The notes under the pieces: generated by a model
The model's input: the letters and a program-made list of their open reading frames with translations, nothing else
What the model was told of the DNA's origin: nothing
Database searches by the model: none
Shown: piece by piece, positions 3,180 to 20,585 of the stretch
How positions within the stretch are numbered: position 1 is the first letter of the stretch
Layout: every line of letters begins with the position of its first letter
Position numbers and translations under genes: made by a program
NCBI RefSeq assembly: GCF_000243255.1
Contig: NZ_CM001436.1
Location: forward strand, 1,214,077 to 1,278,076
Direction of reading: 5' to 3'
Length of the DNA stretch: 64,000 bases
DNA from: Methanoplanus limicola DSM 2279
GTDB taxonomy: Archaea > Halobacteriota > Methanomicrobia > Methanomicrobiales > Methanomicrobiaceae

Positions 3180-3209
3180 ATACACAGACTTTTTACTTTC
3201 ACCCCGCGC
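3180..3209 (+). promoter_or_regulatory. Conserved upstream element shared with the RPA operon promoter
   Basis: The 30-bp sequence ATACACAGA-N-TTTTTACTTTCACCCC-N-CGC recurs at 16355-16384 with 28 of 30 positions identical and in the same orientation. It ends 9 nt before a TATA box (TATTAAAAT, 3219-3227) that should start transcription near 3248, upstream of the gene at 3264. Position and conservation suggest an activator site or an extended BRE/operator. The factor is unknown. Confidence 0.7.
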
Positions 3210-3263
3210 ACGGCGAGTATTAAAATAGTCCCCCATGGATAGGAGAAAGTAGAGGAATAACCA

Positions 3264-3680
3264 ATGATAAACCGTGCAGGTCATGCAGTCCGGGGAAGAA
3301 ACGGCGCAACTGATGAAGACGGCAGGCTCACTGAAATAATAGAGATAAAGGCGGGCAACTGTGTATTAGGTATTAAAACCGGAGATCTGAGGAGGACTTT
3401 CGCGTCCGGAAGACCGGCAGAGATATGGACAGTCAGAAGAGAATGGGGCTGCCGGCTGAGTGAGAGGGAGGGGAAAGGAGTGATCTCACAGAATAAGCGG
3501 GCATTTAATATTGAGACAATTTCCGGGAGGAGATTTACAATCTCACTTGAGAGCCTTAAAAATCTCCTGAAAGGCCATTTGTCATATGTATATGTGGGGG
3601 AGATTATTCCTGCAAAAAGGAAATACAGAAGTCCCACAGGCAGTGATATGGCACCTCCGGCTGCGATGACAGGCGCCTGA
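3264..3680 (+). CDS. Unknown 138-aa protein under an RPA-like promoter
   Basis: I do not recognise the family. The protein is soluble, basic, without signal peptide or membrane segment, and looks mostly beta-strand (EIIEIKAGNCVLGIK, then GRRFTISLESLKNLLKGHLSYVYV), with an Arg/Lys-rich middle. The ATG at 3264 has GAGG 8 nt upstream and a TATA box at 3219-3227. Its promoter carries the 30-bp element otherwise found only before the first RPA gene, so a role in DNA replication, repair or damage response is inferred from regulation alone. The Pro/Ala-rich tail after residue 120 looks disordered. Confidence 0.7.
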   Translation: MINRAGHAVRGRNGATDEDGRLTEIIEIKAGNCVLGIKTGDLRRTFASGRPAEIWTVRREWGCRLSEREGKGVISQNKRAFNIETISGRRFTISLESLKNLLKGHLSYVYVGEIIPAKRKYRSPTGSDMAPPAAMTGA

Positions 3681-16354: not shown

Positions 16355-16384
16355 ATACACAGAGTTTTTACTTTCACCCCACGC
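16355..16384 (+). promoter_or_regulatory. Conserved upstream element of the first RPA operon
   Basis: Identical in 28 of 30 positions to 3180-3209 (ATACACAGA-N-TTTTTACTTTCACCCC-N-CGC). It ends about 7 nt before the TATA box (GATTATATAG, 16392-16401). It is absent upstream of the second RPA cassette at 18716. Confidence 0.7.
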
Positions 16385-16428
16385 GGCAACAGATTATATA
16401 GAAAGAGGTTGCTGATACTTAACCGGAG

Positions 16429-17691
16429 ATGTTTGAAATGGACATTGATCCTGTTATTACAGAAAGAATCTCCCTTAAGATTAAGGAAAAAGGCATTGAT
16501 GCCAGAGATGAAGAGATAGCCGCAAAACTTCGCGTTCTTATCGAGGATTTCCATATCCCGCCTGAAGAAGCGGAAAAGACAGTCACTGACGAAATTCTGA
16601 AGGAAAATAAGGTTAAGGATTTTTCCGGAAAAGATACCTCCGAGGTAACTCCCATTGCAGACATATGCCCGGGAGAGTGGGTAACAGTTGAGGGAAAAAT
16701 TGTTTCAGTATCAGAGCCTCCCTCAGAATCGATAGCCCAGTCAGGTATTATCGCTGACAGAACAGGTGCAGTGAAATTTGTCGTCTGGAAAAAAGCCGGC
16801 GCAGAAGAACTTGAGGAACTGGAATGGTACAGAATTGAATCTGCCGTGGTGGACGAATACCGCGGTGCACCGAGCATGAAGATACATTCCGGAACAAAAA
16901 TTACAAAAACTGAACAGGAGACACCCCTGGTTCCAAAAGCGGTCAAAATTTCCGGGCTGAAACCCGGAATAGCAACCATCCGTGCAAAGTTTGTCAGAAA
17001 CTTTGATGCCGGACATGAAAGAATGCTTCAGGCCGGATTATTAGGGGATGAAACAGGAACTGTCAGATTCGTAACATGGAAAGACGGCAACAGTGAGGTC
17101 CTCGAAGAAGATAAGAACTACATGATATACTACGCAGAGGTCAGCGAATATCAGGGAAAAATCTCTCTTGACATCACCAGTGCAATGATCCTTGAAGATG
17201 AAGATACCGAGATAGAGGTATATGAAGGAGATACTGAAATTTCAGGGGTATTCATACATATGGGCAATGGATCAGGTCTGATTAAGAGATGCCCGGTAGA
17301 GGGATGCGGCAAAACCCTTTCAAGGCAGAATTTCTGTCCTGTACATGAGGTTCAGAATGATTTCCGGTATGACATGAGGATAACCGGAGCCATTGACAAC
17401 GGAAAGTCCACAAAAAACATCCTTATCCAGAGGGCAGAGGCGGAAAGAATCACCGGGATAACACTTAATGAAGCAATTGAAACCGCAACAGTCAGCCCCC
17501 TTGGTTACGACGACATTGTAATGAAGATGAAGAATGCCATCCTCGGCAGATATTTCACCTGTAAAGGAAATGAGATGGACGGAACAGTTCTTGTAAAATC
17601 CTGCACTTCCAAAAAGTACGACTCATCATTCCATGCCGGACTTTTAAACCGGACGGCGGAGATGCTTAAGGAGAAGGGAGGTGACTGCTGA
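16429..17691 (+). CDS. Replication protein A (RPA-like ssDNA-binding protein), copy 1
   Basis: Binds single-stranded DNA in replication, repair and recombination. The 420 aa comprise an N-terminal helical region (residues 1-65), OB folds at about 70-165 and 175-270, a zinc finger (CPVEGCGKTLSRQNFCPVH, near 287-305) and a C-terminal OB fold. SD GGAG directly touches ATG 16429 but is well spaced for the in-frame ATG 16438; both RPA copies have this same arrangement, so the start may really be 16438. Its stop overlaps the next gene (TGATG). It is about two-thirds identical to the copy at 18716 by eye. Confidence 0.9.
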   Translation: MFEMDIDPVITERISLKIKEKGIDARDEEIAAKLRVLIEDFHIPPEEAEKTVTDEILKENKVKDFSGKDTSEVTPIADICPGEWVTVEGKIVSVSEPPSESIAQSGIIADRTGAVKFVVWKKAGAEELEELEWYRIESAVVDEYRGAPSMKIHSGTKITKTEQETPLVPKAVKISGLKPGIATIRAKFVRNFDAGHERMLQAGLLGDETGTVRFVTWKDGNSEVLEEDKNYMIYYAEVSEYQGKISLDITSAMILEDEDTEIEVYEGDTEISGVFIHMGNGSGLIKRCPVEGCGKTLSRQNFCPVHEVQNDFRYDMRITGAIDNGKSTKNILIQRAEAERITGITLNEAIETATVSPLGYDDIVMKMKNAILGRYFTCKGNEMDGTVLVKSCTSKKYDSSFHAGLLNRTAEMLKEKGGDC

Positions 17692-18269
17692 TGGCAGAAA
17701 AGGAAAGCTCAGGGAAAACATTTGAGAGAGAACCTGCAAAGAGAGTCTTTGCATCTGAACTCAGGGAGGCCAGGGTTCAGTTTAAGGAAGGTTCGGAAGA
17801 GATGAGTCCATCATATATCATGCTCCCGACCGGTGAGCGCTGCAACAGAATCTTCTTCTGTGGAGAGCTTAAGAACAAGGAGAAACGCGGGGATCAGAAT
17901 ATCTTCTACACCGCGAGAGTGAAAGATGCAACCGGACTGTTCTTCATAAACGCAGGAAGCTATCAGCAGGATGCAATGCTTCAGATGGCGTCCCTGGAAA
18001 ACGATTCATATGTGGCAGTAACCGGAAAACCGATCATAAGAGAGATGCAGGACGGTGGATTCTTCGTATCGGTCAGAGTGGAGAGCATTTCAGAAGTAGA
18101 TGACGGGACATACAGGCTATGGCTTGATGATACAGCAAAAGCCACACTTGACAGGATAGAAGTATTCGGTGAGACAGAGGACTCGGCAAAGGCAGGTGAG
18201 TTCTACAGCACTGACCCCGAAAAGTACTTAAAAATTATCTACAGCGCCCTTGCAGGTGAAAATTACTGA
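17691..18269 (+). CDS. RPA-associated protein, copy 1
   Basis: The 192-aa partner usually encoded next to archaeal RPA (COG3390 type), containing an OB fold. Key segments are REPAKRVFASELREA at the N-terminus, SYIMLPTGERCNRIFFCGEL, and TGLFFINAGSY. The C-terminal helical part (LWLDDTAKATLDRIEVFGETEDS) is nearly the same in copy 2. Overlap of its ATG with the RPA stop suggests stoichiometric synthesis. In haloarchaea such proteins form complexes with their cognate RPA; specific pairing here is inferred. Confidence 0.87.
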   Translation: MAEKESSGKTFEREPAKRVFASELREARVQFKEGSEEMSPSYIMLPTGERCNRIFFCGELKNKEKRGDQNIFYTARVKDATGLFFINAGSYQQDAMLQMASLENDSYVAVTGKPIIREMQDGGFFVSVRVESISEVDDGTYRLWLDDTAKATLDRIEVFGETEDSAKAGEFYSTDPEKYLKIIYSALAGENY

Positions 18270-18715: not shown

Positions 18716-19999
18716 ATGTTTGGTGTGGATGAATATCCGGAAATAATAGAAAGAATCTCCCAGAAGATTGCAGAAAAAGGCATTAATGCCGAAGAGGACA
18801 GAATTGCTTCCAAATTAAGGTTACTTATAGAGGATTTCCATATCCCCCCTGAGGAAGCAGAAAAAACAGTCACAAATGAGATACTAAGAGAGAACAACGT
18901 CTCTTCCGTATCCAGGGAACCTTCATCCGAAACAATAGGGATTGCAGATGCAAACCCCGGAGACTGGGTCACTATTGAGGGAAAGGTCGTATCGGTATCT
19001 GTTCACCCCCACGAAGCCATAGCCCAGACCGGGATAATTGCTGACGAATCAGGAGCAATAAGATTCGTCATATGGGAAAAAGCCGGTGCAGAACCTCTTG
19101 AGGAACTCAGATGGTACAGGATAGAATCAGCAGTTGTTGACGAGTACCGCGGTGCACCGAGCATGAAGATACATTCCGGAACAACCATCACAAAGTCTGA
19201 ACAGGAAAAACCGCTTATGCCGAACCCGGTCAGAATTTCGGATTTGAAACCCGGAGTTGCGACAGTCAGGGTAAAAATGATCCAGAACTGGGAACCGCGT
19301 CATGAAAATATGCTCCAGTCCGGACTTTTAGGCGATGAGACAGGGACTGTCAAATTCATCACATGGAAGGAGAGAAACAATGAGTTTCTCGGAGAGAGCC
19401 ATGACAAATTACTCGAGGAGAATAAAGTATATTCAATATACTACGCCGTTGTGGACGAGTATAACGGAAATATCTCACTGAATATAAGTGATTCTATGGC
19501 ACTTGAAGAAGAGGGCGCCGATATCGAAGTTGTATCAGGTGAAACCGAAATAACAGGTGCATTCGTGAACTTCTCACCAAATTCAGGCCTTATAAAGAGG
19601 TGTCCTGTCGAAGGGTGCAACAGAGCACTGTCAAGGCAGAATTACTGTCCGGTACATGAAATTCAGAACAACTCTAAATATGACCTGAGAATTATCGGCG
19701 TTATAGATGACGGGAAAAAGGCATACAATACCATCATTCAGAGAGATGAAACGGAAAAGATAACCGGTATAACACTTGAAAAGGCGATGGAGATGGCAGA
19801 GAACAACCCTCTTGGCCTTGATGACGTAATTCTGAAGATGAAGGAGGTCCTTACCGGAAGATACTATACATGCAGAGGCAGTGATATTGACGGATCGGTT
19901 CTGGTTTCCTCATGCACCCCAAAGAGATTTGATTCAATGGAACATGCAGAACTGTTAAACCGTGCTGCACCTGAAGAGAAGGAAGGAGGCGAATTCTAA
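18716..19999 (+). CDS. Replication protein A (RPA-like ssDNA-binding protein), copy 2
   Basis: Paralogue of the gene at 16429 with the same order of helical region, two OB folds, zinc finger (CPVEGCNRALSRQNYCPVH) and C-terminal OB fold, 427 aa. The length difference is mainly an insertion in the second OB fold (FLGESHDKLLEE, near residue 220), which looks like a local duplication of the FLGE/LLEE stretch. AGGAG touches ATG 18716; GTG 18725, at the position equivalent to ATG 16438 of copy 1, is the better-spaced start. It lies 446 nt after copy 1 of the cassette. Confidence 0.9.
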   Translation: MFGVDEYPEIIERISQKIAEKGINAEEDRIASKLRLLIEDFHIPPEEAEKTVTNEILRENNVSSVSREPSSETIGIADANPGDWVTIEGKVVSVSVHPHEAIAQTGIIADESGAIRFVIWEKAGAEPLEELRWYRIESAVVDEYRGAPSMKIHSGTTITKSEQEKPLMPNPVRISDLKPGVATVRVKMIQNWEPRHENMLQSGLLGDETGTVKFITWKERNNEFLGESHDKLLEENKVYSIYYAVVDEYNGNISLNISDSMALEEEGADIEVVSGETEITGAFVNFSPNSGLIKRCPVEGCNRALSRQNYCPVHEIQNNSKYDLRIIGVIDDGKKAYNTIIQRDETEKITGITLEKAMEMAENNPLGLDDVILKMKEVLTGRYYTCRGSDIDGSVLVSSCTPKRFDSMEHAELLNRAAPEEKEGGEF

Positions 20000-20000
20000 A

Positions 20001-20585
20001 ATGGCAGACGAAACCAGCAGCTCAGAAAGAAGAAGATATTTAAGGGAACCGGCAAAGCGTGTATTAGCTTCAGAACTGCGTGAGACAAGACTTCAGTTCA
20101 AAGGCGGCGAGGAGGAATACAGTCCGACATACATAATGCTTCCAACAGGAGAGAGGTGCAACAGGATCTTCTTCTGCGGAACACTCACCAATAAGGAAAG
20201 GCGCGGCGAGGATAATAATTTTATAATTGCAAGAGTGAGGGATCCTACAGGCCTTTTCTTTATAAATGCCGGAAGTTACAATGAGAATGCATCGCATGAA
20301 CTCTCATCGGTTGAAAACGATGCCTATGTCGCAGTAGTTGGAAAACCTGCCATTAGACAGACACCTGACGGTGCTGTTATGACAAATATAAGAGTCGAGA
20401 CTATAGCCGAGGTTGATGAAGAGACATGCAGAACCTGGCTTGATGACACGGCAAAGGCGACACTTGAAAGGATAGAACTCTTTGGAGAGACAGAAGATTC
20501 AATAAAGGCTTCAGAATTCTATAATACAGATCTGTCGGTGTACAGAAAGATGGTCTACGATGCACTGGCAGGCCAGAAACTTTAA
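20001..20585 (+). CDS. RPA-associated protein, copy 2
   Basis: A 194-aa paralogue of the protein at 17691 (YLREPAKRVLASELRE, TYIMLPTGERCNRIFFCG, TGLFFINAGSY, TWLDDTAKATLERIELFG). The true start is ATG 20001, one nt after the RPA stop; the frame is open upstream into the RPA gene, but that part shows no family similarity. In copy 1 the two genes overlap, whereas here they abut. Divergence is greatest in the middle (residues 90-135), probably the surface that distinguishes the two complexes. Confidence 0.87.
   Translation: MADETSSSERRRYLREPAKRVLASELRETRLQFKGGEEEYSPTYIMLPTGERCNRIFFCGTLTNKERRGEDNNFIIARVRDPTGLFFINAGSYNENASHELSSVENDAYVAVVGKPAIRQTPDGAVMTNIRVETIAEVDEETCRTWLDDTAKATLERIELFGETEDSIKASEFYNTDLSVYRKMVYDALAGQKL

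Follow-up and report, generated by a model that had tools for sequence, protein, structure and literature searches.

Why should a gene for a 138-aa protein of unknown function and the gene for the single-stranded DNA-binding protein RPA carry almost the same stretch of noncoding DNA in front of their TATA boxes? The question is raised by a 64,000-nucleotide stretch of the Methanoplanus limicola DSM 2279 genome (hereafter the window), for which the original prediction was a 30-bp promoter element shared by the two genes, read by a common factor and perhaps marking a replication-linked or DNA-damage regulon. DNA-damage sensing and response are largely open in euryarchaea, in which no LexA-type SOS system is known; among archaeal damage regulons, that of the Sulfolobales is described best. 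The element described below supplies a precise operator, a ranked set of targets and a negative control for the whole order Methanomicrobiales.

Both copies of the repeat are real. Positions 3180-3209 and 16355-16384 of the window are identical at 28 of 30 positions on the same strand, and the 16-mer TTTTTACTTTCACCCC is exact in both; with up to three mismatches allowed, this 16-mer has five matches in the window against 0.64 expected from shuffles. The predicted distance of 7-9 nt to the TATA box is correct if counted from the end of the 30-mer. The limits of the 30-mer itself need revision, in that its core is kept, its leading ATACACAGA is not general, and the real element runs on in the 3' direction into an RCGC or RCRCGG tail (Table 1). 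The leading ATACACAGA was rejected as part of the element, being present or near-matched at few own-genome sites only, and positions 5' of TTT are not conserved across the order. RPA orthologues match the NCBIfam replication factor A models, and we infer that the 192-aa gene behind RPA is presumably co-transcribed with it. We further note that 16429-18269 and 18716-20585 of the window are tandem paralogous RPA operons, of which only the first has the element, and that a related genome (G001) also has two nearby RPA copies with the element at the first.

Table 1. Coordinates of the promoter elements, TATA boxes and associated genes in the window, and of two further transcription units of the same genome (L122 and L123).
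Feature	Position	Strand	Remarks
Promoter element copy 1, TTTTTACTTTCACCCCGCGCACGG	3190..3213	+	ACTTTC core at 3195-3200; matrix score 32.0, top of the window
TATA box TATTAAAATA	3218..3227	+	17 bp after ACTTTC; read from sequence
138-aa protein gene, function unknown	3264..3680	+	Predicted to be a core member of the regulon
Promoter element copy 2, TTTTTACTTTCACCCCACGCGG	16365..16386	+	ACTTTC core at 16370-16375; matrix score 29.6, second only to copy 1 within the window
TATA box TTATATA	16394..16400	+	18 bp after ACTTTC; read from sequence
RPA (replication factor A / single-stranded DNA-binding protein)	16429..17691	+	ORF; first of two paralogous RPA operons
Second gene of the RPA operon, 192 aa	17691..18269	+	ORF overlaps the RPA stop codon
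827-aa and 1038-aa ORFs	L122:962-3442 and L123:485-3598		Transcription units headed by the element

The 3,200,946-base genome contains four exact, four one-mismatch and four two-mismatch copies of TTTTTACTTTCACCCC, and the pattern TTTACTTTCACYCY has ten matches in it against none for the reversed pattern. Had these copies been a dispersed repeat unrelated to promoters, the original prediction would have fallen; they stand in front of repair and replication genes, and their spacing to a TATA box is fixed. With a TATA-like box in between, the element stands upstream of uvrA, the 138-aa gene, RPA and radA. Its other targets in this genome are a 289-aa gene with a PD-(D/E)XK Rpn-type nuclease behind it, a 60-aa protein with a GIIICV end, a 94-aa protein with a winged-helix protein in the same stretch, a 63-aa gene ahead of one for a 445-aa protein that has a metallophosphoesterase domain, and two mutually similar ORFs of 827 and 1038 aa. 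By eye, the last two perhaps resemble primase/helicase proteins of integrated elements, with no firm family assignment; with the element heading their transcription units, mobile DNA may be using the host damage signal. Two of the two-mismatch matches lack the element-TATA-gene arrangement and probably arose by chance. At the locus of the 445-aa protein and at its counterpart (L121 and L131), a leader of ~400 nt separates the element from a 63-65-aa ORF, and the metallophosphoesterase domain is C-terminal; this arrangement of element, leader, small ORF and 445-aa gene is kept in both species of the genus.

Across the Methanomicrobiales the element follows the consensus TTYACTTTCRCMCYNCRC(RCGG) and lies 17-19 bp 5' of the TATA box. 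The relaxed pattern TYACTTTCRCNCNNCRC has 136 sites in 37 Methanomicrobiales genomes and none when reversed. A profile of 141 distinct sites, chosen by the core motif, reads T-T-Y-ACTTTC-R-C-M-C-Y-N-C-R-C followed by a C/G-rich, RCGG-like tail, and most sites with a recognisable box have an AT-rich, TTTATA-like sequence 17-19 bp after ACTTTC. Because this box was absent from the search pattern, its fixed register is independent evidence that the sites belong to promoters. The element is asymmetric, roughly 20 bp long and wholly upstream of TATA, and the 6-8 positions between its tail and the TATA box carry under 0.1 bit each, an unconserved stretch that suggests a putative weak BRE, as in Sulfolobus UV promoters. 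A chance similarity or a dispersed repeat, for which nothing speaks beyond the two copies first observed, is refuted by the reversed-pattern controls; four exact 16-mers in 3.2 Mb, and orthologous promoters that keep the element across six families while their flanks diverge, leave practically no room for it.

When 84,980 species were searched for the stricter pattern TYACTTTCRCMCYRCRCRCGG, 79 stretches were returned, of which 60 are titled Methanomicrobiales or its genera, two are from Methanotrichaceae, three are from unclassified Euryarchaeota with a Methanoculleus-type small gene and 14 are bacterial. One UvrA match, on an Ignavibacteria contig (L321), was discarded, as it appears to be due to chance within a coding sequence.

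Choosing loci by gene avoids the motif-based selection of sites, and here too, as in the pattern-selected sites, a TATA-like box lies downstream of ACTTTC. Upstream of radA, ACTTTC is present at 46 of 49 Methanomicrobiales loci (30/30 from several families plus 16/19 further loci). Conservation at RPA orthologues, on whose absence the original prediction would have failed, is found in 26 of 30 upstream regions at a matrix score of at least 5, against one on the reverse strand. The corresponding figures for uvrA are 9/30 and none in the control; with uvrA targeted in only about a third of genomes, membership of the regulon evidently drifts. The negative control orc1-A has the element in none of 30 upstream regions. 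Since the training sites of the matrix came from these same genomes, scores of orthologues in the training set are not independent; this overlap is answered by the strand control and the orc1-A control. Members of the 138-aa family were found by a profile search, the rows of which had been gathered via the motif, with some genomes recurring and many matches new; all 29 true members have the element, which lies 57-89 bp upstream of the point where the match begins, and none has it on the control strand. In other families of the phylum, YACTTTCR lies upstream of radA in 20 of 30 cases against none in the control, and outside the order TTTAT commonly follows it at a similar distance. We conclude with high confidence that the element controls a common set of repair and replication promoters. 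The three radA genes without ACTTTC come from three genomes of one genus (g20), where a decayed ATTATC copy, GGCATTATCGCACCGCGCGG, retains its tail and TATA box, which suggests an ongoing loss of control.

The genes downstream of the element include repair and replication families, as the original prediction had expected of a search through the whole genome and the related Methanomicrobiales. Scanned with Pfam and NCBIfam, 100 downstream proteins include RPA (10), Orc1/Cdc6 (8), RNase_H_2 of the YprB/RecB-like type (7), the radical-SAM DNA repair family TIGR03916 (5), RadA (4), the Rpn recombination-promoting nuclease (4), Cdd1 helix-hairpin-helix proteins (4) and Mre11-type phosphoesterases (3); by eye, a RecQ-like protein and UvrA occur once each as targets. 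The element, its position, its conservation and this list of targets are direct observations. A replication or cell-cycle-phase regulon, in which a factor raises RadA, RPA and Orc1 at chromosome replication and damage is one trigger among others, would account for RPA and Orc1/Cdc6, both replication proteins, and for the haloarchaeal pattern matches that by eye precede topoisomerase VI B, MCM and RPA elsewhere in the phylum. We consider it unlikely without dismissing it, given that uvrA, mre11, RecQ, the nuclease Rpn, the repair family TIGR03916 and genes of mobile elements are targets typical of a damage response, that the core-bearing Halobacterium genes were discovered via UV-B induction, and that the initiator gene orc1-A lacks the element in all 30 cases.

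The core of the element has a precedent in Halobacterium, where Boubriak et al. (2008) described TTTCACTTTCA upstream of TATA in the UV-B-induced radA1, top6B, vng17 and vng280, together with TTTTACTTTCA as a near match at npa; radA genes of other haloarchaea and of Methanospirillum hungatei had similar sequences (PMC2556686). The two motifs have the ACTTTCA core in common, upstream of TATA and at radA in both, and its spacing to TATA (17-19 bp in methanogens) is about the same in haloarchaea-like radA loci; the 141 profile sites have YACTTTCR, in keeping with the Halobacterium-type core. The methanogen element differs in its conserved 3' extension (CYCY-NCRC-RCGG) and in targets that are order-wide and far more numerous (RPA, mre11, uvrA, recQ, nucleases and small proteins), and the Methanoplanus genus has TTTTACTTTCA where Halobacterium has TTTCACTTTCA. 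The idea as such is not new, since the 2008 paper placed the core motif at UV-B-induced haloarchaeal genes and at one methanogen radA promoter (PMC2556686); what is new is a greatly enlarged version of an archaeal UV-response motif that was already known, with an order-wide set of methanogen targets. Our literature searches, which left subscription papers mostly outside their coverage, found no earlier description of the regulon in methanogens and no paper joining the Halobacterium UV-B motif with the Sulfolobus Orc1-2 element, two literatures that are linked here.

In Sulfolobus, the motif A(N)TTTC, which is ACTTTC in several promoters, lies at -44 to -39 and is essential in the ups promoters (Le et al., 2017; PMC5817253), and Orc1-2 interacts with it via its winged helix (Liu et al., 2022; PMC9738581). 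The hexamer is identical to that of the methanogens and has the same orientation, and in the UV-inducible promoters of Sulfolobus it is likewise upstream of a weak BRE and TATA. It ends, however, ~8 bp from TATA in Sulfolobus as against 17-19 bp in methanogens (about 10 bp further). In Sulfolobus only 6 bp are conserved and the described targets are pili, DNA transfer and TFB3 genes; TFB3 has no counterpart in the M. limicola genome.

With the bacterial LexA/SOS system the methanogen regulon has in common a recombinase, uvrA, a single-strand binding protein and small proteins as targets, as well as use by mobile elements, whereas the site is asymmetric, without a palindrome, upstream of TATA and unrelated in sequence. 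It is this SOS-like target list, together with a mobile-element use that de-repression would fit, that could point to a LexA-like repressor sitting on the site and released by damage. Such a repressor seems to us distinctly improbable, as the non-palindromic site is wholly upstream, clear of both the TATA box and the start site, and the corresponding Sulfolobus motif is needed for promoter activity (PMC5817253). That the factor is an activator is our inference by analogy, from the position upstream of TATA, the putative weak BRE and the Sulfolobus precedent.

The reading that we favour and hold to be probable is that the element is an activator site at shared promoters of repair, replication and damage-accessory genes, to which an activator binds after damage or replication stress. 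The role of damage as the signal is inferred, with moderate confidence and without methanogen expression data, from the UV-induced Halobacterium genes with the same core and from the target list. The common factor and the replication or DNA-damage regulon first proposed for this locus are supported to this extent, though neither induction of these genes by damage in methanogens nor the factor's identity has been proven. Once DNA is damaged or replication is under stress, a sequence-specific activator would most likely bind the element at about -60 to -38, and the bound activator would recruit TBP and the single TFB to promoters with an unconserved B-recognition region. Together with RPA and radA, the 138-aa family would form the core of this regulon, which in some lineages would also take in uvrA, mre11, recQ, nucleases and small proteins, and the site would be borrowed by mobile elements.

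The candidate for this factor is a non-initiator Orc1/Cdc6 paralogue, Orc1-B, proposed by analogy with Sulfolobus Orc1-2; it is leading but unproven. Orc1-B, encoded at G000:C1:1312223-1313275, is divergent and distinct from Orc1-A, and 35 of 37 genomes have it at a comparable score; the orthologue of the initiator is Orc1-A, which matches S. solfataricus Cdc6-1 with E 9e-105. No solved structure allowed the placement of Orc1-B, and its orthology to Sulfolobus Orc1-2 is thus unsupported here. Autoregulation of Orc1-B was rejected as proof of the regulator, since the element was not found at the Orc1-B genes examined. A TFB3-like factor is unlikely because the M. limicola genome has one TFB gene only. 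The binding of the related Sulfolobus hexamer by Orc1-2 could also mean that the element is an origin-recognition box or a parking site for Orc1 with no direct role in transcription, and its opposite-strand GAAA and G-string may resemble parts of archaeal ORBs. This is very doubtful in view of the orientation and TATA spacing, both fixed at many scattered promoters, and of the 30 element-free orc1-A upstream regions. The activator site that we favour offers, in the element, a bait for the missing regulator. More speculatively, ACTTTC(AC) upstream of TATA may be an ancient damage box that methanogens have in common with haloarchaea and Sulfolobales, with Orc1/Cdc6 paralogues as its readers in all of them, which would amount to an archaeal equivalent of SOS; we offer this only as a tentative possibility. 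If true, a relative of the replication initiator became a damage-response activator, with the 138-aa family among its most constant targets. The extra Orc1 genes that carry the element (Orc1-C) may be mobile-element initiators.

The regulon also names unstudied families, the 138-aa family foremost, as likely damage-response proteins. The 138-aa protein has no match in Pfam or NCBIfam. Its gene is single-copy in about half of the genomes searched and has varying neighbours, by eye including methyltransferase, isocitrate-dehydrogenase-like and PAS genes. In the family alignment G70 and S75 are invariant, a SGKALNI stretch is conserved, and in many members the C-terminus is a short hydrophobic tail. 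An AlphaFold model from 24 sequences (pLDDT 86.9, pTM 0.74) predicts the fold EEE-H-EEEE-H-E, in which the final 20 residues are less certain. Foldseek found nothing significant for this model (best E 0.33). With VIA-align, SsgB (6suj) ranked first (Z 6.6, 3.1 A, 84 residues) and the Whirly protein PBF-2 (1l3a) fourth (Z 5.0, 3.8 A, 88 residues), both with Z within the range of unrelated models. A Whirly-like ssDNA-binding or an SsgB-like division function is only a lead from these model comparisons, and the protein appears to be a core target whose fold is confidently predicted and unplaced. We would predict a damage-induced accessory protein acting on DNA or on the division machinery. Weak relatives of the family adjoin extra Orc1/Cdc6 genes in three genomes (G004:C1:1043323-1045292, G016:C9 and G028:C11), and in G004 the Orc1 gene beside the relative carries the element.

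The archaeal targets of TYACTTTCRCMCYRCRCRCGG are for the most part small proteins: 20 belong to a family of 45-64 aa with the core LAERAARYPTVVRRSQMRK, 16 to the 138-aa family and about 16 to an MVKNT family of 123-133 aa. The 45-64-aa family (TFxxLAERAARYPTVVRRSQMRK) has the strictest form of the element (L126:428-607 and at least six other loci), and some of its members end in IIICV; Pfam gave no match for the M. limicola member. The MVKNT family, found with a strict element in Methanoregula-type genomes (six loci among others), is similar in its C-terminal part to the 138-aa family, and several of its genes are followed by an ORF with MKAADVKAQINERIIKSL, ArdC-like by eye. Several unrelated small targets share a short hydrophobic C-terminal tail (ISAVV, LTAWV, IIICV); it might serve as a signal for turnover.
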